Below are positions 1-23,300 of a stretch of DNA of 64,000 nucleotides, in pieces. Below the pieces are notes generated by a model. It was not told the origin of the DNA. It saw only the letters and a list, made by a program, of their open reading frames with translations, and ran no database searches. The position numbers were made by a program, and so were the translations under genes. Positions within the stretch are counted from its first letter, which is position 1. Each line of letters begins with the position of its first letter. The stretch comes from Moritella sp. (GTDB taxonomy: Bacteria > Pseudomonadota > Gammaproteobacteria > Enterobacterales > Moritellaceae): NCBI RefSeq assembly GCF_013215705.1, contig NZ_JABSQR010000008.1, positions 1-64,000 of the forward strand, in the 5' to 3' direction.

Positions 1-373
1 GTTGCTTCTTGGTGCCGTTAATGACTTTACTTATTTGCGTAGGAGTTAAAATATCAGGCAGGCGTTTAACTTGTGGTGGTTTGACAATGTTGAGCCATTC
101 CCACTGCTTGTCGAGCGTATAGCGGTAGAAAAACTGTAAACCGTTACGGTCTAATTTAACGGTACTCCAAGAGTGGGTCTGGATCAGGCTATTGAAATAA
201 ACTTTTAAATCGGCAGTAGTTAATGTGTCTGGGGACTTATCAAAGTAAGCCGAAATGCGTCGAACTGCACGAGAATAGGCATCAATGGTCGCTGGTCGTT
301 TACCTTGTAGCCTTAAATTGATAAGGTGTTGTTCATAAAGATAATTAAATCGTTGCTGTTGTGAATGATTCAT
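1..373 (-). CDS. tyrosine recombinase (phage integrase family), N-terminal part
   Basis: The ATG is at 373 on the minus strand and the frame stays open to the window edge, giving 124 residues. The start MNHSQQQRFNYLYEQHLINL leads into a SAM-like core-binding domain: a PATIDAYSRAVRRISAYF-type helix, then HSWSTVKLDRNGLQFFYRY and PPQVKRLPDILT. The last visible residues lie just before the catalytic domain, so the Arg/His/Tyr residues cannot be checked. A tyrosine recombinase upstream of an IS91-type transposase is known from some IS91-family elements. This is the least damaged of the three recombinase copies and shows what the other two have lost. Confidence 0.8.
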   Translation of the reverse strand, partial: MNHSQQQRFNYLYEQHLINLRLQGKRPATIDAYSRAVRRISAYFDKSPDTLTTADLKVYFNSLIQTHSWSTVKLDRNGLQFFYRYTLDKQWEWLNIVKPPQVKRLPDILTPTQISKVINGTKKQ

Positions 374-466
374 ACTAATAACTCTAATAAGGCACAACCA
401 TAATGGTGATGCTATTGGTTAGTATGACTGGTAGGGCAAAGACTCTGCCGCGCAGCGGCTTCGTTC
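1..466 (-). mobile_element. IS91/tyrosine-recombinase element, copy A (left part outside window)
   Basis: This is the upstream end of a mobile element seen three times in the first 3.5 kb. It holds the 5' part of a tyrosine recombinase gene (1-373) and a terminal segment (374-466). The terminal segment carries a CACCAT/ATGGTG-type hairpin near 393-410 and a GCCGC/GCGGC hairpin near 447-459. The same segment recurs at 2480-2570 and 3405-3497. The element stops at GTTC (463-466) and is followed directly by AACAAGC, the start of an attC site. The rest of the element, including its transposase if present, lies left of the window. Confidence 0.7.
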
Positions 467-562
467 AACAAGCGCTTTAAACGGAACAAAACAGTTGGCT
501 CTGTTCCGCTTCGCTCCACCATTATAGCCAACTATTTTTGCCCGCTTAAGTGGGCGTTATGT
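467..562 (+). other. attC-like recombination site 1
   Basis: The site begins AACAAGCGCTTTAAACGG and ends CCGCTTAAGTGGGCGTTATG. The inner arms AGTTGGCT (493-500) and AGCCAACT (526-533) are perfectly complementary, and the outer arms pair imperfectly. The 3' core is GTTATGT at 556-562. This is the architecture of Vibrio/Pseudoalteromonas-type integron attC sites. Its 5' R-box has been displaced by mobile element copy A, so only AACAA remains of it. Confidence 0.8.
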
Positions 563-582: not shown

Positions 583-1041
583 ATGACAAAGGAAGAGTTA
601 ACTTTAATTGCTGCAATATTAGCTGCATTCACCTCTATATTATCTCTATTTTTGGGTTCAAAATTAACTTTTAATAGAGAGAAGCGTACATTACGCTGGA
701 ATAATGAAATTGAAAGGTTACAAAATCTTGAGGAACAAATTGGGATTGCCCAAGAAGTTGTTTCTGTATACACCAGTGTCGAAAAATTAAGAGCTGACTT
801 TATACCTCTCCATGAGAATTTAGAATATGTTGCAGGAAGGTTCGCTCGATACCCTGAATTAGCAAAAGCCATTCGAGGTTTTGTTCATGCTTGTAACCTT
901 ACCGTTAGTGCAAAAATAGAACATGAAGATTATCGAGAGTATAAAGAAATGGTTTCAACTGAATATATAAAAGTTATTACAGAATGTGATCGTATATTAG
1001 AACCGAAATTATTAGATAGCTTTGTAAAAAGAAAAACATAA
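583..1041 (+). CDS. integron-cassette hypothetical protein, membrane anchor plus coiled coil
   Basis: This 152-aa protein has no family I recognise. I chose ATG 583 because GAGG at 568-571 gives an 11-nt spacing. An in-frame ATG at 559 overlaps the attC core and is the alternative. Residues 5-25 (LTLIAAILAAFTSILSLFLG) form one membrane segment. After it comes a charged helical stretch (RWNNEIERLQNLEEQIGIAQE), likely coiled coil, and a soluble C-terminal part. The gene starts 20 nt after the attC 1 core, and its stop codon forms part of the next attC R-box (CATAAC), the normal layout of a cassette gene. A stress or defence role is possible but unsupported. Confidence 0.75.
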   Translation: MTKEELTLIAAILAAFTSILSLFLGSKLTFNREKRTLRWNNEIERLQNLEEQIGIAQEVVSVYTSVEKLRADFIPLHENLEYVAGRFARYPELAKAIRGFVHACNLTVSAKIEHEDYREYKEMVSTEYIKVITECDRILEPKLLDSFVKRKT

Positions 1042-1044
1042 CAA

Positions 1045-1121
1045 ATAAGAATAGGTGTCGCGCAGCCGACACCTTATTCGGGTGTTGAACAAGCCCGAGC
1101 CTTTCTTTATATAGTAAATAA
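1045..1121. repeat. terminal repeat of the element, transposase side (copy B)
   Basis: GGTGTCG (1054-1060) and CGACACC (1067-1073) form a perfect stem around the loop CGCAGC. The stem extends outward with one bulged base (GAATA against AATTC-side TTATTC). The segment through TATAGTAAATAACGTGT is repeated at 2981-3063 with only a few differences, and a worn version sits at 19285-19325. A subterminal hairpin at the 3' side of the transposase gene is the expected form of an IS91-type ori end. Confidence 0.7.
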
Positions 1122-1180
1122 CGTGTTTGATCTTGGTGGTCACTTCGTCTTGGGGCTAAATCTAAGACGAGCGAAATTGA

Positions 1181-1206
1181 GATAAATAACAGGTCTGTTA
1201 TTTATC
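1181..1206. repeat. perfect 12-bp stem-loop downstream of transposase
   Basis: GATAAATAACAG (1181-1192) and CTGTTATTTATC (1195-1206) are exact complements separated by GT. A second, 6-bp stem CGTCTT/AAGACG lies just left of it at 1146-1169. Both sit between the transposase stop codon and the element terminus. They may be part of the replication origin of the element or a terminator for the minus-strand genes. Confidence 0.6.
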
Positions 1207-1292
1207 AATGAATTAACCTATTTTCACCATAACTATCGCATCTCCAATCTTAAGTGTTAACACCATTATCCTTATTATGTTACGCCTTTCGG

Positions 1293-2318
1293 CTAGGTCG
1301 TTCGCGTGATGCCAACGCATTTCATTTCATGCTGACAGAAAGGACAAATCTTGATTGCTTTCGCAGTTATCGTTGCGACGAGTTCAGGAATTTCCCAATT
1401 GAACAGATGCAGCAATATTGTTTGAATGCGCACTCGCAGCCGTGTGGCATTACCGTGTAAAAAGCCATAATCCCGCACTCGCTGTAATCCTTTGGGAAGC
1501 ACATGTTGCAAGATGAGCCAGAGAAATTGCAGCGTCGGTAAGGTTCTGGTTTTCGTTGCTTGAGTTTGTCCGTCTTTATAGTTGAATGTCACCGTATTAT
1601 TGCTTGTATCGATGATATCTTTATCAGGTAATACGCCCCGATATAAATAGCGTGACAGATATTGTAAGGCGGGAAGACCGTAACCGACTTTTCGGTAATC
1701 AACGACCCATTTAGTGGGTAATGTATCAGCGTTCGCCAGCGATAGGTCAGCGTGCTGATTGATTGCATCAATCATTCTAGCTCGCCAGACTTTAGCTAGT
1801 GCAAAGGCGTTAAACAGATAGTTACTCTTACCTTTATGCCATTGGTTTCGCGTTTTATTGTAGCTGCCATTGGCGACTATAATGTGTAAGTGGGGATGTA
1901 AATTACGTTTCCTGCTGTGAGTATGAAAAACGGAGGTGAAGCCTATTTCACCGCCGTTTCTACGTTTGTAAAAGTCCTTCAACACACTTGCTGCGACTGA
2001 GAACATGGATTGATAGAGCGCTTTAGGTTGCGAACGCGCAAGCGTTCGTAATTCATAGGGTAAAGTGAAGGTGACCATAAAGTAATGCACGGGCAGTAAC
2101 TTTGATTGTTGGCGCTCAAGCCAATCAGAAGTCGTGCGTTGCTGGCATTGCGGACAATGTCGATGGCCGCAAGAAAGCGGCAGTCGGTCATCATGTTGGC
2201 AGTGACCACAATACCATTGTGAGCAACCTTGGTTGCTCGTTTTACAACTGAGCATGGCGTAGATTGCACGTCGGCTATCGTGAGATAGCTGATTACCAAA
2301 TTGCCGTTCAAACTCCAA
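1293..2318 (-). pseudogene. IS91-family HUH transposase, N-terminally truncated
   Basis: The frame reads 341 residues from a TTG at 2318, directly after an in-frame TGA, so the true start is lost. A zinc-binding region is visible (C37, C40, C50, C55, C58). The HUH motif HPHLH has metal-binding histidines H143 and H145, and the tyrosine motif YLSRY has Y220 and Y224. A second C-x2-C (CPFC) lies near the C-terminus. Family members normally begin about 40 residues earlier. This enzyme family moves single-stranded DNA by rolling-circle transposition. The catalytic residues are intact, but the missing N-terminus and lost start make activity doubtful. Confidence 0.8.
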
Positions 2319-2332
2319 TCAAGCGTTAATTT

Positions 2333-2479
2333 ATCTGTGGCGTTATCAAAGTACGCACTAATCTGTCGAATTACACGAGAATAGGTATCAATAGTCGCTG
2401 GTTGTTTACCTTGCAAACGTAAATTGATAAGGTGTTGTTCATAAAGAACATTAAAGCGTTGTTGTTGTGAGTTGTTCAT
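2333..2479 (-). pseudogene. tyrosine recombinase, 5' fragment
   Basis: From ATG 2479 the first 49 or so residues (MNNSQQQRFNVLYEQHLINL, then PATIDTYSRVIRQISAYF) match copy A closely. After TDKLT, near 2333, the sequence passes directly into the truncated transposase, in a frame that does not read it correctly. The core-binding and catalytic domains are gone. This is one product of the deletion that fused the two genes of copy B. Confidence 0.8.
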
Positions 2480-2570
2480 ACTGAATTCTCCAATGTCATC
2501 CCCATTATGGTGATGTTATTGGTAAGTATGACAGGTCGGGCAATGACTCCGCAGCGCAGCGGCTTCGTTC

Positions 2571-2670
2571 AACAAGCATTTCAATCAGGTTCCGTAAGTT
2601 GTCCTGCTTTTTGCAAAGACCCGCAAAAAAGCTAGCCAACATTGCTTCGCTAATTAAATGGGCGTTATGT
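2571..2670 (+). other. attC-like recombination site 2
   Basis: The site starts AACAAGCATTTCAATCAGG and ends GCTAATTAAATGGGCGTTATG, with the core GTTATGT at 2664-2670. The middle is imperfectly paired, with GCTAGCC and GTTGTCC-type segments, and is more diverged than attC 1. The R-box that belonged to it is at 1037-1042, on the far side of mobile element copy B. It directly precedes the cassette gene at 2813. Confidence 0.65.
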
Positions 2671-2754
2671 GCCTGAGGGACTGTGTACATTCTGTATTGA
2701 TCTGTACACGATCACGATCGTGGGCACTTTCGATGCTATGAAGAGCGCAATCGG

Positions 2755-2785
2755 TTGCAAAATACCGTATTCTAAAGGCTATAAT
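2755..2785 (+). promoter_or_regulatory. sigma-70-type promoter of the cassette gene at 2813
   Basis: TTGCAA (2755-2760) and TATAAT (2780-2785) are spaced 19 bp, slightly long but with a perfect -10. The 10-bp palindrome CACGATCGTG lies about 45 bp upstream, near 2713-2722, and could be an operator. A private promoter suits a cassette that cannot rely on an integron Pc promoter. Confidence 0.5.
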
Positions 2786-2812
2786 CTCGAAGTTATGTAG
2801 AGGATAATATCA

Positions 2813-2959
2813 ATGGCTAAGCAAAATTACAGTTTTGAAAAGCGCCAGAAAGAAATAGCAAAAAAGAAAAAGAAGGAAGAGAAACGGTTGAAAAAAACAG
2901 GAGTAGATGATGATCAGCCGCAGGACGATCAACCTATATTGGAAAACGACGATAAATAG
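2813..2959 (+). CDS. small highly basic conserved protein (48 aa)
   Basis: The ATG at 2813 follows AGAGGA with good spacing. The protein begins MAKQNYSFEKRQKEIAKKKK, runs through a Lys/Glu-rich helix and ends in an acidic tail rich in D and Q. I recall short proteins with the same NYSFEKRQKE...KKKKEEK pattern as widespread in Gammaproteobacteria without known function. The lysine-rich helix suggests nucleic-acid or ribosome contact, which is inference. It sits as a cassette between attC 2 and mobile element copy C. After its stop codon the sequence CATAAC marks the next attC R-box. Confidence 0.75.
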   Translation: MAKQNYSFEKRQKEIAKKKKKEEKRLKKTGVDDDQPQDDQPILENDDK

Positions 2960-2980
2960 GTAGCAATCGGCACATAACAT

Positions 2981-3497
2981 ATAAGAATAGGTGTCGCGCA
3001 GCCGACACCTTATTCGAGTGTTGAGCAAGCCCAAGCCCTTCTTTATATAGTAAATAACGTGTCCGCCTTTCGCTTCACGGATATGAACCTGCATGGTTTG
3101 GCTATCAATATCATGAACGGTAAGGTTTAAGCCCTCGCTTAATCGCAGGCCTATGCTGTAAAGGGTGAGAAAGAACACTTGATAGCGCTGTTTCTTCGTC
3201 GCACTTATCATTTTACTTATTTGCGCTGGCGTCAAGATATCGGGTAAGCGTTTAACTTGCGGAGGTTTGACAATGTTGAGCAATTCCCATTGTTACTCTT
3301 TATGACAATATAGCGTATAGCAGTAGAAAAACTGCAAGCCATTACGGTCGATTTTAACGGTGCTCCAAGAGTGGGTCTGGATCAGGCTGTTGAGAATGAT
3401 TCATACTGATACCTCCAATAAGGCACCACCATAATGGTGATGCTATTGGTTAGTATGAACGGTGGTGGAAAGACTCCGCCGCGCAGCGGATTCGTTC
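2981..3497 (-). mobile_element. IS91/tyrosine-recombinase element, copy C (relic, 0.5 kb)
   Basis: This copy lies between AACAT (2976-2980) and AACAA (3498-3502), again within an attC site. It has the transposase-side terminal hairpin (2981-3063), joined directly to the middle of the recombinase gene, then the recombinase-side terminal segment (3405-3497). The transposase is wholly absent. Terminal sequences are better preserved than coding ones. Confidence 0.7.
3064..3404 (-). pseudogene. tyrosine recombinase, twice-deleted relic
   Basis: The ATG at 3404 begins MNHSQQ, then an internal deletion at a CAACAG/CAATAG microhomology skips most of the core-binding domain. The next stretch matches the HSWSTVK...FYCYT region. 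A small rearrangement near 3295-3310 introduces a stop, then the frame resumes with NIVKPPQVKRLPDILTPAQI. It runs past LYSIGLRLSEGLNLTVHDID, which holds the catalytic Arg of the family. It ends at QVHIREAKGG, where it is cut by the element terminus. It shows the catalytic-domain start missing from the other two copies. Confidence 0.8.
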
Positions 3498-17227: not shown

Positions 17228-18418
17228 CTAAGCAGTTGGGTCGATATTTAGATCTTCTGCCGGACCAAAGAATTCAAAATGCACATTTTCAGCTGGGATC
17301 CCTAGTTTGGGTGCGAAGCTATTCATTGCTTGCATGAAAGGTTTTGGACCTAAGAAATAGAATTCGACATCACGATCATCACCGATTTTTTCTTCAAGCA
17401 TGGCTAAGTTGATGAAACCGGTTGCATCTGGTTTGCATTCTGCTGTTGCATCACTGTAAACGAAGAAGGGTTTGATGTTGTCGTTTTCAGCAGCAAGGTT
17501 GGTTACATGGTCACGGAATGCATGTACCTTGGTATTCATCGCTGCATGAATAAAGTGAATTGGGCGGTCTGTGCCTTTCAAGCTGTTTAGCATGCTGATT
17601 GCAGGTGTAATACCAACGCCGCCAGTGACGAGTACAACGGGTTTGTTGTTGTCTTTTAACACGAAGTCACCTGCTGGTGCTAATACGCGCAGTGTGTCAC
17701 CCGCTTGAACACGGCTGTGTAGGTAGTTCGATACGGTGCCACCTTCTTCACGTTTAACACTTATACGTAGGTATTCTGAATTTGGAGCATCAGATAAGCT
17801 GTATTGACGGCGCGTTTCTTCACCATCAATGGTTAATACTAAACCAATAAATTGACCTGGTGTGAATGATGTCACAGGTTTGCCATCAGTCGGAGTCAGG
17901 TAGAAAGATGTGATGTTGTCGCTTTCAGCTACTTTTGTTGTGACAGCGAATTCACGCTCACCACGCCAGCCGCCTTCTTTTTCTGCATTGGCTGTATAAG
18001 CCGCTTCTTCTGCTGCGATTAGTAGATCAGCTAGCTGCCAATATGCTAGTCCCCAAGCTTCGATCACAGCATCTGTTGCTGCGTCACCCAGTACGGCTTT
18101 GATTGATTTTAATAAGCATTCGCCAACAATCGCGTATTGTTCTGGTTGGATATTAAGTGACACGTGTTTGTTAACAATGCGGTTTACGGCTGCTTCTAAT
18201 ACCGCTAGGTTTTCTATGTTACCTGCATATGCAACAAGGGCATTTGCCAGTGCTTTAGGCTGTGCGTTACCCGCCTGGTTGCTTTGGTTGAAGAAGCGTT
18301 TTACTTCTGGATATTCTCTAAACATCAAAGGATAAAAATGCGCTGTAATATCATTGGCATGAATAGAAACAGCAGGGACAGTCGCTTTGATAATATCAAT
18401 AGTGTGTTGCGTTAACAT
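17228..18418 (-). CDS. hmp: flavohemoglobin, nitric oxide dioxygenase
   Basis: It detoxifies NO to nitrate with O2 and NAD(P)H in the cytoplasm. The 396 aa equal the length of E. coli Hmp. The N-terminal globin (1-140) includes the distal region HFYPLMFREYPEVKRFF and the proximal histidine in EQYAIVGECLLKSI. The FAD domain shows RQYSLSDAPN, and the NAD domain shows VLVTGGVGITPAISML and YFLGPKPFMQAMN. AAGGTAG precedes the ATG. A sigma-54-type promoter, an FNR-type box and a long inverted repeat lie upstream. This fits control by NorR, encoded 3.2 kb away. Confidence 0.94.
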   Translation of the reverse strand: MLTQHTIDIIKATVPAVSIHANDITAHFYPLMFREYPEVKRFFNQSNQAGNAQPKALANALVAYAGNIENLAVLEAAVNRIVNKHVSLNIQPEQYAIVGECLLKSIKAVLGDAATDAVIEAWGLAYWQLADLLIAAEEAAYTANAEKEGGWRGEREFAVTTKVAESDNITSFYLTPTDGKPVTSFTPGQFIGLVLTIDGEETRRQYSLSDAPNSEYLRISVKREEGGTVSNYLHSRVQAGDTLRVLAPAGDFVLKDNNKPVVLVTGGVGITPAISMLNSLKGTDRPIHFIHAAMNTKVHAFRDHVTNLAAENDNIKPFFVYSDATAECKPDATGFINLAMLEEKIGDDRDVEFYFLGPKPFMQAMNSFAPKLGIPAENVHFEFFGPAEDLNIDPTA

Positions 18419-18499: not shown

Positions 18500-18547
18500 A
18501 GTTTGTAAGCTGTTGTTTTTAAATTAATATATATTTAAATGTTTTAG

Positions 18548-18593
18548 TTGTTGTGTTTATGACAACTAGTGTAAGTTGTCATAAACACAACAA
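18548..18593. promoter_or_regulatory. perfect 20-bp inverted repeat, candidate NorR enhancer
   Basis: The arm TTGTTGTGTTTATGACAACT (18548-18567) is exactly complementary to 18574-18593 around the loop AGTGTA. Each arm contains GT-N7-AC (GTGTTTATGAC), the core reported for NorR sites in E. coli. A partial third copy, ATGACAACTTACA, follows near 18603. The repeat lies 50-95 bp upstream of the sigma-54-type promoter, the usual enhancer position. Confidence 0.55.
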
Positions 18594-18658
18594 GTTATCT
18601 AAATGACAACTTACATTGTGTGTATTTAATGCCAACAAAAGTTAAATATTCACAATCC

Positions 18659-18703
18659 TTGTACCTTGCGGTTTTAAATTGGTAAAGTGTTGTTCATAAA
18701 GGA
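18659..18703 (-). repeat. relic of the IS91-associated recombinase 5' end
   Basis: The stretch TTGTACCTTGCGGTTTTAAA through AAGTGTTGTTCATAAAGGAT resembles the first part of the recombinase gene at 2400-2450 (TTGATAAGGTGTTGTTCATAAAG). It is in the same orientation relative to the following cassette gene as in the left-end array. Too little is left for coding. Confidence 0.55.
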
Positions 18704-18758
18704 TTTAGAACATTTCAGTCCCGACTGTTGAGTTGATATATTTACGAGGACGCGCTAT

Positions 18759-19280
18759 ATGAAATTGAGTATTACAGAAAACATCGAGTTACTCCCTCTA
18801 GAGGTGACGGATTCCTCTGATATATTAGATCTAGTTGAATACAGCCGAGCCCAATTAGGAAAATATCTCTATTGGGTTGATGGTGTTCGAGATGAGATAT
18901 CCGCGCATAAATACATAGTAGAACGTATCAATAGTGGGTTGTCAGGTTCGCGATGGTTCAAAATACAATTCCACGAGCAAGTTTGTGGTGTCTTTGGTAT
19001 CAAGTCAATTTCAGTTGGGAGTGGTATTGCTGAGGTTGGTTATTGGCTCTCGCATGTTGCACATGGTAATGGCATTATCGTTAAAATCATTGCCCAGATA
19101 TCCTCTTTTTTGTTAGCGAACACAGATGTAAAAATAATTGAATTTAGGTGCCTTGAAAATAATACCGCGAGTATTCGTGTGGCAAAAAAGTCTGGGGCTG
19201 AGTTAGTGGGTTCAATACCTAACTATATGAATGCCGATAATAAAAATCAGGATCTTCACATATACCATCTGAAAATGTAA
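18759..19280 (+). CDS. GNAT-family N-acetyltransferase, RimJ/RimL type
   Basis: This 173-aa acetyltransferase starts at ATG 18759 after GAGGA. AEVGYWLSHVAHGNGI, near residues 95-110, is the acetyl-CoA-binding strand and loop. FRCLENNTASIRVAKKSGAE near 135-155 is the typical RimL-like C-terminal helix. The substrate is unknown: ribosomal proteins, antibiotics or small amines are all possible. Both flanks carry relics of the left-end mobile element, and the stop is followed by the same AACAT-ATAAGAACAGGTGT junction. It therefore looks like a cassette gene transplanted between hmp and norR. Confidence 0.8.
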   Translation: MKLSITENIELLPLEVTDSSDILDLVEYSRAQLGKYLYWVDGVRDEISAHKYIVERINSGLSGSRWFKIQFHEQVCGVFGIKSISVGSGIAEVGYWLSHVAHGNGIIVKIIAQISSFLLANTDVKIIEFRCLENNTASIRVAKKSGAELVGSIPNYMNADNKNQDLHIYHLKM

Positions 19281-19284
19281 ACAT

Positions 19285-19325
19285 ATAAGAACAGGTGTTG
19301 GATAGTCGACGCGTTGCTCGGATAT
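19285..19325. repeat. worn terminal repeat of the IS91-type element
   Basis: ATAAGAACAGGTGT followed by TGGATAGTCGACGCGTTGCTCG aligns with the element terminus at 1045 and 2981 (ATAAGAATAGGTGTCGCGCAG). The hairpin is largely lost. It directly abuts the IS256-type fragment, which probably inserted into or recombined with the element here. Confidence 0.5.
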
Positions 19326-19329
19326 CAGC

Positions 19330-19708
19330 ATTGTACATTTCCTTAAACGAATCAACGATATCGCGTGTTGCCATCTCTTTAGCGTAGAGACTCAGAATCT
19401 TATCATCCATCGACGTAAAGCGAGTTTGGTTTTTCTTGACCAGCTTAGGCTCAAAGTTACCATTACGATCTCTTGGTGTATCAAGTTCAAATTGGCCATT
19501 TTTAGTGTTTTAGAAGAATAACCATTTTGATAATTTATTGAAGTGTCTTTCTGATTTTTCTCATAACCAAGATGTTCATCTAGCTCTGCATTGAGCGCAG
19601 CTTCAACGGTGATCTTAGTGAGCATTTGACTAAAATCGAGGAGATTTTGTTGAGATTTAAAGCTTTTTGCGGCTTCCTTTGCAAAGGCTTCTAGTTCTTG
19701 CGTTGTCT
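19330..19708 (-). pseudogene. IS256-family transposase fragment
   Basis: The minus strand reads TTQELEAFAKEAAKSF, then QMLTKITVEAALNAELDEHLGY, the N-terminus of IS256/Mutator-type transposases. A 1-nt loss in CTAAAAATGGCC near 19500-19510 shifts the frame. The next frame continues FELDTPRDRNGNFEPKLVKK, then MDDKILSLYAKEMATRDIVD to YNADI, and stops at the element junction. Only about 125 of some 400 residues remain, and the DDE catalytic domain is absent. The original start is also lost. A GGGACAGGGCC-like stretch near 19760 may be the outer terminal repeat. Confidence 0.75.
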
Positions 19709-19867
19709 AATTACCTATCCTTAATATGATTAAGTTAATGATAGGCAATTACACAGATTTCGGGACAGGGCCGAGATATTAGATGCATACTGAATTATTG
19801 ACGTAATATGTCATGACTACTCACGTCTCGATGACAAGATGTACCCACGCCTAAACTATACAATCAA

Positions 19868-20867: not shown

Positions 20868-21416
20868 TTAAGACTTACAAATCGCGGCAACCGCTTTCAA
20901 TCGACGGGCTGGTTCTGCAACAAACGGATTGGTTTCATCCCACGCATAACCAGCTAAGATCGAACAGATCATTTGTTTTATCTTCGGATTAGGATTGTCA
21001 TGCAAGACCACGTCTTGGAATTCGCCAGTGTACCAACCTTCAACATAACAACGGAATGCGTTAACACCTGTCATTAACGTATCAGCATAGTGAGCCGCAG
21101 TAATGTGGTCTTCAATATGAGTAAAGATAGCGCGTCTTGGTGGAAGGGTCGATGGTACTTCCAATCCTAATAAACGCGGTAGCACACGACCGAAGCCACT
21201 GGCATCAAGGATAAAATCAGCTTCTATCTCATAGCTAATAGTGACGCCTTGTTGCTCTGCACAGTCGGCGAGCAATTTGTCGAAGTGTCCACGTTGTACT
21301 TGGAATGTAGTGCCTTCACCAGCCGTATATTTTTCGGTGAAATCAAACTCAGTATATTTACCATTGGCGTGGAAAGCCGCACCATTTTTAAATTGGAAAC
21401 CAGCAGTGTTGATGAC
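20868..21416 (-). pseudogene. flavin-dependent (tryptophan halogenase-like) oxidoreductase, internally deleted
   Basis: The minus-strand frame has no start and begins INTAGFQFKNGAAFHANGKY, then FQVQRGHFDKLLADCAEQQG, typical of FAD-dependent halogenase-like oxidoreductases. It jumps from ISYE to IEADFILDASGFGRVLPRLL, then from FTHIEDHI to TAAHYADTLMTGVNAFRCYV. It ends with MICSILAGYAWDETNPFVAE. The N-terminal GxGxxG FAD motif and two middle stretches, including the substrate region, are missing, yet the frame stays open throughout. The deletions therefore look clean. It lies upstream of norR and points outward. Confidence 0.7.
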
Positions 21417-21539
21417 ACAAAAAATTCCTTATTATGTCGAGTCTTAATCCGGCAGATTTATCTATTAATATATTTAGTAGGGCGACTTACCACATGTTAG
21501 ATAATCGGCTAAAAAATTTTAGTAAATCAATAAAAACAG

Positions 21540-21553: not shown

Positions 21554-21662
21554 CAATAAGCCGCAGTCTATAAATCAACGGTGATGATTTAACCTGTTGT
21601 CACTTTGACCACGAAATGCTATAACTAGTCTCAACTGAATGACCGTTTTAAGGAGCTGTTAC

Positions 21663-23300
21663 ATGGAAAATCTGCGCTTTATCGAGATCATAGATACTGT
21701 TATTTATGACCTATCTAGAGAGTTGCCTAAATATCAACGATATAACCGACTATTACAGGCATGGCGGGATATTTTTTCATGTGACGCATGCGTGTTGCTA
21801 AAGCTGGACGGCGACAACTTAATCCCTAAATCGGCGAATGGGTTACAAATCGACGCAATGGGACGACATTTCCCCATTGCAGAACATCCCAGACTTGAGC
21901 AGATCCTAGCTCACTATGAAAATGAAATTCAAAAAAAAGTACACCGTTTTGATGCGGATTGTGAGCTTCCCGATCCTTATGATGGTTTGATCCAAACACC
22001 TGACGGCCAACTTAATGTACATGATTGCATGGGCGCGGTGTTAGTGATTGATAATAAGCCGTGGGGGATCATCACTATGGATGCACTTAATCCACAACGC
22101 TTCGACTCACTCGACCCAAAGATTTTAAACTCTATGATTGGCCTGACTGAAGTAGTGATCAAAACCGCCAACTTAATTTTTTCATTAGACCAAAAAGTGC
22201 AACGACAAGAGCAGGTAACCGCCAGCTTAATTAGTGAGAAATTCAGCGAGAAAATGATAGGCTCTAGTCCTGCGATGAACATGCTTAATTTAGAAATAGA
22301 TTTGGTTGCTGATTCAGATTTAGCGGCATTGATATATGGTGAATCGGGCTCAGGTAAAGAGTTAGTTGCGCGTCGAATTCACATGTCGTCAAAACGTGCC
22401 AAGGAAGCATTAATTACCGTGAACTGCGCCGCATTACCCGAAACGATGGTCGAAAGTGAGTTGTTTGGTCATGTTGCAGGTGCGTTTACTGGTGCAATGA
22501 AAAATCGTCTGGGTAAATTCGAACTTGCAGACTGTGGTACATTATTTCTGGATGAAATAGGTGAACTGCCTTTGTCTATTCAAGCCAAGCTATTACGGGT
22601 TATTCAGTTTGGCGAACTGCAACGCTTAGGCAGTGATAAACCCCATAAAGTGGACGTAAGGTTAATTACCGCAACTAACCGAGATCTTGCTAAAGAAGTT
22701 GCAGAGGGACGATTTAGAGATGACTTGTACCACAGGTTAACTGTGTATCCATTAAAAGTGCCAAGTTTACGAGAACGCGGTAATGATATCTTATTATTAG
22801 CAGGTAGCTTCCTCGCCAAGATCCAGCGTAAAGTAGGTCTTAACAACTTGACCTTAGCCAAAGACGCTGAGCGTGTATTACTGGCGTATGAATGGCCAGG
22901 TAATGTCCGAGAGTTAGAGCATCTTTTAAGTCGAGCTTCATTAAGAGCCGCAGCTCGTAACCGTAAAGACGATCGGGTCGTTGTATTAGAAAGCAGTGAT
23001 TTAGATATTCAGTCTGCAATTGGTGAATCAAATGCTAGCTTACATGCTAATAAGAACACGGATTCTGACGTTATTGCAAAAGGCATGGCTAGCGTGGCTC
23101 ATGTAGCAGGGCAAGATGACATCGTAATTAGTACTGTTGATAACGACAACAATTTAAAACAAATAACGGATGATTTTCAGACTCAGTTTATCAAAAAGAT
23201 GTTAGCTGAAAATAACGGTAATTCAGCTGCCACGGCGCGTGCGATAGGCGTTGATAGAAGTAATTTACACCGATTGATGAAACGACTCGACATTCAGTAA
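21663..23300 (+). CDS. norR: nitric-oxide-responsive sigma-54 activator NorR
   Basis: It senses NO by a mononuclear iron in the GAF domain and activates RpoN promoters. ATG 21663 follows AAGGAG, giving 545 aa. The GAF domain spans about 20-170, with YRLLQAWRDIFSCDACVLLK-like sequence and GVLVIDNKPWGIITMDALNP-type strands. The AAA+ domain shows GESGSGKELVARRIH (Walker A) and GAFTGA at 273-278, the sigma-54 contact loop. A Fis-type helix-turn-helix lies at the end (NSAATARAIGVDRSNLHRLM). It is longer than E. coli NorR (504 aa) through an insert before the HTH. Its likely target in the window is hmp. Confidence 0.9.
   Translation: MENLRFIEIIDTVIYDLSRELPKYQRYNRLLQAWRDIFSCDACVLLKLDGDNLIPKSANGLQIDAMGRHFPIAEHPRLEQILAHYENEIQKKVHRFDADCELPDPYDGLIQTPDGQLNVHDCMGAVLVIDNKPWGIITMDALNPQRFDSLDPKILNSMIGLTEVVIKTANLIFSLDQKVQRQEQVTASLISEKFSEKMIGSSPAMNMLNLEIDLVADSDLAALIYGESGSGKELVARRIHMSSKRAKEALITVNCAALPETMVESELFGHVAGAFTGAMKNRLGKFELADCGTLFLDEIGELPLSIQAKLLRVIQFGELQRLGSDKPHKVDVRLITATNRDLAKEVAEGRFRDDLYHRLTVYPLKVPSLRERGNDILLLAGSFLAKIQRKVGLNNLTLAKDAERVLLAYEWPGNVRELEHLLSRASLRAAARNRKDDRVVVLESSDLDIQSAIGESNASLHANKNTDSDVIAKGMASVAHVAGQDDIVISTVDNDNNLKQITDDFQTQFIKKMLAENNGNSAATARAIGVDRSNLHRLMKRLDIQ

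Follow-up and report, generated by a model that had tools for sequence, protein, structure and literature searches.

Worn element ends flank a cassette-type acetyltransferase gene between hmp and norR in Moritella

In the deep-sea bacterium Moritella, a GNAT acetyltransferase gene lies between hmp and norR, bordered to the left by the R end of one copy of an IS91-type element and to the right by the T end of a second copy; the whole is worn DNA of the integron-array type. The movement of this array-derived block to a non-array site is well supported. Integrons are regarded as gene stores in which shuffling goes on inside the array; to our knowledge, the exit of a cassette gene from an integron to a stable chromosomal place is poorly documented. 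What such departures lead to is shown by two orthologous loci that are empty in sister species, and the element fossils beside the genes point to the vehicle. Cassettes outside arrays (CALIN, SALIN) and the mobilisation of neighbouring DNA by IS91-type elements are already known. What is added here is that fossils connect the two, at orthologous loci whose counterparts in other genomes are empty.

The unit between hmp and norR

The window is the whole stretch of 64,000 nucleotides that was analysed; it opens contig C5 of a 58-contig Moritella genome (G000). The features of the locus are as follows.

17228-18418, minus strand: hmp, flavohaemoglobin gene to the left of the insert (Globin, FAD- and NAD-binding domains)
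18662-18708, plus strand: R relic, 5' end of a tyrosine recombinase gene (the recombinase gene itself would read on the minus strand)
18748-18761, plus strand: GGACGCGCTATATG at the GNAT start, possible worn attC 3' box (GGGCGTTATG), judged from its sequence only
18759-19280, plus strand: intact GNAT acetyltransferase gene (PF13302, E 1e-13), with orthologues at the same place in 7 genomes
19280-19321, plus strand: T relic, terminal hairpin end of the element in a worn state (0/2000 shuffles), at the same place in G003, G004, G007, G008 and G009
19322-19760 (ends approximate), minus strand: relic of an IS256/Mutator-family transposase abutting the T relic (PF00872, E 5e-4; NF033543, E 0.003)
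21639-23300, plus strand: norR-type regulator gene, right neighbour of the locus, with a same-order orthologue in 11/11 genomes

The reference copies of the element lie at the start of the window.

289-473, plus strand: R end of an array element, reference for the relic, with a promoter-like TTGATA-16-GATAAT at 318-345
1039-1104, plus strand: T end of the next array element, directly 3' of the cassette gene
1043-2573, minus strand: array element inside an attC, with an IS91-type transposase (1293-2318, minus strand) and a truncated tyrosine recombinase
2395-2590, plus strand: R end of element 1043-2573, then the remaining attC up to GGGCGTTATG
2975-3040, plus strand: T end of a further array element

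Against a 3.7-kb target, the R relic (18662-18701) is identical to 301-340 at 34 of 40 positions (E 3e-8) and to 2407-2446 at 33 of 40 (E 1e-6), and its match score was reached by none of 300 shuffles. A profile made from other R copies finds 18662-18708 with an E-value of 3e-10. The relic corresponds to the antisense strand of the start of the recombinase gene, and its outward side points to GNAT. On the other side of the gene, the T relic (19280-19321) gave a 42-column alignment with the array element's T end, with 18 of the initial 19 bp identical and the remainder worn; 0/300 and 0/2000 shuffles reached this match. The order and orientation of R, GNAT and T are those at 289-1104 and 2395-3040. 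Thus, the first-pass annotation correctly placed the GNAT gene between a recombinase 5' relic and a worn element terminus in the arrangement of the window-start cassettes, as both matches to the window start are better than chance (0/300 shuffles each). Its term "cassette relic" fits only the element pieces, as the gene itself is intact, encodes a full-length Acetyltransf_3 protein and is under purifying selection.

The surviving pieces are short, about 40–65 bp of the R end and 37–42 bp of the T end, and two whole flanking element copies, as in a composite transposon, are not present. In every species the left outer edge of the unit lies inside the recombinase gene and the right one about 40 bp inside the T end. 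In the window the T relic stops at about 19321 and the IS256-family transposase relic, a region with minus-strand frames of 63 and 77 aa, starts at about 19322. The next gene beyond the block, away from hmp, is a second GNAT gene unrelated to the first. Inspection by eye recognised no attC between GNAT and this gene. What is left at the locus is a candidate R'' (TAAC) and a candidate 3' box but no complete attC; by the same inspection it lacks the one or more recognisable attC sites without an integrase that define a SALIN or CALIN. The GGACGCGCTATATG at the GNAT start, in place of which G003 has GAGGGCGCTTTATATG, is suggestive of a worn attC 3' box.

Two further observations concern the neighbouring genes. 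Near norR, a flavin-type halogenase/monooxygenase-like gene (20868-21418) is apparently shortened compared with the copies of relatives. Upstream of hmp, an inverted repeat, gttgtgtttatgacaac ... gttgtcataaacacaac (18541-18610), is recognisable in 11/11 genomes and is a possible regulator binding site.

The parent element in integron arrays

The array units at the window start run T, IS91-type transposase (minus strand), tyrosine recombinase (minus strand), R. The transposase belongs to the IS91 family of Y2 (HUH) enzymes with a Zn-binding N-terminal domain (PF04986, Y2_Tnp, E 1e-41; PF14319, Zn_Tnp_IS91, E 4e-27), and an element copy in G009 scores 350.8 bits with NF033538 (cut-off 125). The element lies outside the ISCR clade, with 26.7 bits for NF052416 against a cut-off of 925. 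IS91-family elements insert next to a GAAC/CAAG-type tetranucleotide at the origin end (GTTC/CTTG when read outward). The T end, read outward, abuts GTTA in nearly all array copies, which is close to, though not identical with, GTTC/CTTG. The window's own genome holds 18 matches to T and 15 to R.

Across arrays in several Moritella genomes, T is preceded on its left by the end of a gene and then TAAC, and R is followed on its right by AAG and further attC sequence that ends in GCGTTA. When the two flanks are joined they form attC-like hairpins, for example at -21.2 kcal/mol compared with a shuffled mean of -6.8. Most of the joined flanks at many array sites fold well below the energies of shuffled sequences; the joined site in L177 folded no better than its shuffles. 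Therefore, the parent element sits just behind box R'' (..TAAC) of attC sites. With the flanks joined, the genes at the window start are separated by attC sites, as in an integron cassette array. An integron integrase is encoded in the same genome (TIGR02249, 387 bits, above the cut-off) on contig C39, which is not joined to the window, and true integron integrases occur in 5 of the 11 Moritella genomes.

Several observations on the arrays stand beside these results. The T ends in the window (1039-1090 and 2975-3026) form a near-perfect hairpin between TAACA and TGTTGA that resembles a short attC. L177 (G009, contig C1, 1336500-1345000) lies about 1.66 Mb away from the integron integrase and is a small cluster of cassettes; it contains a whole element that is itself interrupted by an IS3-type element. 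On contig C1 of G010, the T and R copies at about 49–56 kb and at 1.15–1.17 Mb have identical scores in both regions, as if an array stretch had been duplicated to a remote place.

Distribution in the genus and a second locus

The frame of hmp, norR and a MATE gene is conserved in all 11 Moritella genomes, each with an hmp orthologue that has the same neighbours. GNAT lies directly upstream of hmp in seven of them (G000, G003, G004, G007, G008, G009 and G010), with stop codons in G003 and split in G010. The R core scored 54–75 in all seven carriers (0/500 shuffles) and at chance level in the four non-carriers, and a profile search agreed on both counts. T follows GNAT in six of the seven carriers (0/2000 shuffles each); in the same test it was not found in G010 or in any of the four non-carriers. 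One alignment had hinted at an R relic in genomes that lack GNAT, and this candidate was dropped, as the scores there equal those of shuffles. Comparison of the hmp–norR interval across the 11 genomes thus revealed no GNAT gene without element pieces.

The four genomes without GNAT (G001, G002, G005 and G006) group in a single clade (100% support), and no conflict was seen between the GNAT and species trees. This joint presence and absence, together with the compatible trees, indicates that R, GNAT and T are one old unit that arrived or was lost as a whole, long ago. With norR of other families as outgroups, the sequences were too distant to fix the root, and therefore a single gain by the carriers and a single loss by the non-carriers both fit. 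Weak similarity was found between the R-to-GNAT sequence and the intergenic region of GNAT-less genomes (0–37 of 400 shuffles), in most pairs with G001 and G005, and none with G006 and G002. The left boundary of the insert is uncertain because of this weak similarity to G001 and G005. Close homologues of this GNAT were also looked for in arrays; relatives at 38–47% (L030, L032 and L107) and one at 42% in Vibrio campbellii (L223) showed no significant R or T.

The supposition that the cassette had moved recently from the array 15 kb away did not hold up, since the event is ancestral to several species, with GNAT shared by the seven carrier genomes, and the unit is worn. Direct descent of the hmp unit from that array is not shown. 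In comparisons of the window GNAT with other intact copies, dN/dS was 0.12–0.29 (pairs of intact copies only, the G003 pseudogene being left out), and the gene is thus under purifying selection in most species. Conservation between species is also higher in the right half of the R relic (0.83) than in the flanks (0.64 and 0.70). Among the array R copies, 10 of 12 carry TTGATA-16-GATAAT on the outward strand; the hmp copy was not flagged in a promoter scan. Judging from sequence, the R end of about 45 bp may have been kept as an upstream promoter of GNAT.

A second unit of the same build lies upstream of a site-2-protease-like metalloprotease gene. There, R and a 198-aa gene are present in G000, G003, G004, G008 and G010, with T in four of the five (missing in G008). 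In G001, G002, G005, G006 and G007 the protease is present and neither R, the gene nor T was found. R reaches about 62–117 bp into the recombinase and T 60–84 bp into the element. The 198-aa gene is unrelated to GNAT and has a weak VasI-like match. Thus, the all-or-none pattern is repeated independently, for a different gene between different neighbours. At other dispersed sites, R relics lie just before cassette-type genes (GNAT, CatB-like, LysE, MAPEG-like and others, named by reading of the translations rather than by profile searches), and solitary elements exist outside arrays, for example L188 of G007. The two units indicate that, long ago and on more than one occasion, cassette genes came to rest at distant places in the chromosome together with pieces of the element.

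Routes of movement and comparison with known systems

A block made up of the end of one element copy, a cassette and the start of a second copy was probably inserted beside hmp by an element-based vehicle. The insertion would go back to an ancestor from which much or all of the genus descends. The most likely vehicle would be the element itself, with its IS91-type transposase, its tyrosine recombinase and its seat in attC sites, because elements of the IS91 type have been documented to take neighbouring DNA along by read-through when they fail to stop at their own end (PMC9330008). Either such read-through or transposition as a composite may have been the route. The element would then have decayed and the gene would have been kept by selection, with the R end perhaps retained as a promoter. 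The first-pass proposal that the element carried a cassette gene to a non-array site therefore stands in its outcome, with GNAT accompanied by R in 7/7 carriers and T in 6/7, both missing from 4/4 GNAT-less genomes, and a second locus alike; the one-ended mechanism that it named is plausible but not supported by the edges of the unit.

One-ended, ISCR-like rolling-circle transposition would start at the T end of copy 1, run past R and through the cassette and stop inside the next element, and copy 1 would later have decayed to its R end. The transposase is of the right family, the cassette sits past the end on the recombinase side, as expected of DNA copied by read-through, and the order R–gene–T fits, as does its repetition at the second site. 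However, the model predicts a natural element end facing host DNA on one side, whereas both outer edges are internal to the element. No such end was found on either side in any carrier genome at the hmp or metalloprotease locus, and the predicted T end of copy 1 against the left host DNA is absent in 7/7 and 5/5 carriers, respectively. Later deletion could account for the missing ends. The low ISCR score (26.7 bits, cut-off 925) also speaks against this route, which is plausible but unshown, and we can entertain it only tentatively. As one-ended transposition is a sub-case of block movement, our estimates for the general and the specific readings overlap.

Two readings that do without read-through are live rivals. 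Homologous recombination, in which a cassette and one element looped out between direct repeats and entered a solitary element beside hmp, would place the cassette between two stretches of element sequence, as observed. The roughly 18 similar T ends in the genome offer ample homology, and solitary elements do exist outside arrays (L188 in G007). Yet no genome has a solitary, gene-less element at the hmp or metalloprotease site, and we regard this route as rather unlikely. Alternatively, the hmp–norR interval may be a former cassette array eroded to one gene, that is, a degraded CALIN or SALIN that never involved transposition of a single cassette. Cassette clusters away from IntI occur in the genus (G009 at 1.34 Mb; G010 at 49–56 kb), and clusters distant from an integrase are common elsewhere (PMC9024848, PMC9229058). 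In the interval, however, no second R–gene–T, complete attC or trace of IntI was seen in any of the 11 genomes, and the flanking order is kept, which makes erosion unlikely.

That IntI put a single cassette into a secondary site, with the element pieces incidental, is highly improbable. IntI is present in 5 genomes, and the candidate 3' box of an attC where GNAT begins would fit a cassette boundary. However, a cassette excised by IntI would leave the upstream element's R end behind, whereas every GNAT at this site has R beside it, and the second locus likewise pairs R with a gene; insertion by IntI alone is thus disfavoured. Finally, it is hardly credible that the R- and T-like stretches, short as they are at about 45 bp each, are ordinary regulatory sequence of hmp or GNAT or similar by chance, the latter being ruled out by the shuffles and by their joint absence from non-carriers, since the copies of relatives are nearer to the element than the window copy and the same motifs flank an unrelated gene at the second locus.

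Returning to insertion by an element-based vehicle, the attC-seated element with its tyrosine recombinase might possibly serve as a regular export route that takes cassettes to fixed sites and leaves its R end as a promoter, although we offer this with considerable reserve. If so, array genes would in this way become ordinary, vertically inherited genes.

The Moritella element shares with IS91 and ISCR elements an HUH (Y2) transposase with a zinc-binding domain, and, as with these, flanking genes are found beyond one end, here that on the recombinase side. In contrast to them, the Moritella element adds a tyrosine recombinase gene and sits in attC sites, no natural end of it meets host DNA in the dispersed units, and by model score it is not an ISCR. 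In a Shewanella integron, the IS91-like ISShvi3 lies adjacent to an attC, a single case, and no IS interrupting attC sites was found there (PMC9229058). The likeness lies in an IS91-like, attC-adjacent element in the variable region of an integron, whereas in Moritella many copies sit exactly after box R'' and worn cassette–element units occur at non-array loci. IS1111-attC elements are also insertion sequences at the attC sites of cassettes, according to PMC9229058, which cites Post and Hall 2008. They belong to the DEDD group (IS110/IS1111 family), to which the Moritella element, with its Y2 transposase and tyrosine recombinase, does not.

The terms CALIN and SALIN stand for cassettes, or single attC sites, that lack an integrase (PMC9024848, PMC9229058). 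The hmp locus resembles them in having a cassette-type gene away from any integron integrase; unlike them, it has no complete attC, and its flanks are element ends that attC-based software would miss. Because such tools need an attC, departed cassettes would escape them, and the R and T motifs provide an alternative means to find these genes.

Related ends also occur on plasmids. On the conjugative plasmid pVIBHAR of V. campbellii (L222, 2018-2581), a GNAT gene is followed directly by a T end (GGCTAAC, then AAATAAGGATATG...), with no match to the R profile at this locus. T ends also lie behind genes on Shewanella and Pseudoalteromonas plasmids (L224, L226). The Escherichia coli IncC plasmid RCS41_p (NZ_LT985243.1, 10952-13285; L227) carries an IS91 transposase and site-specific integrase pair in a class 1 integron. 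This element follows exactly after TCTAAC of the aadA1 attC, in the same orientation as in the Moritella arrays, and is flanked by TCTAAC and AATTCGTTCAAGCC, the latter presumably the native continuation of the aadA1 attC. At near identity, the copy was found on no other plasmid in the collection and in no E. coli genome of the RefSeq set, except for a 250-bp piece on a Shewanella plasmid. It is of the same design as the Moritella element, with about 67% DNA identity over the matching 53%, and differs in lying in a mobile integron with no dispersed cassette there. The copy in the aadA1 attC shows that this type of element also reaches resistance integrons.
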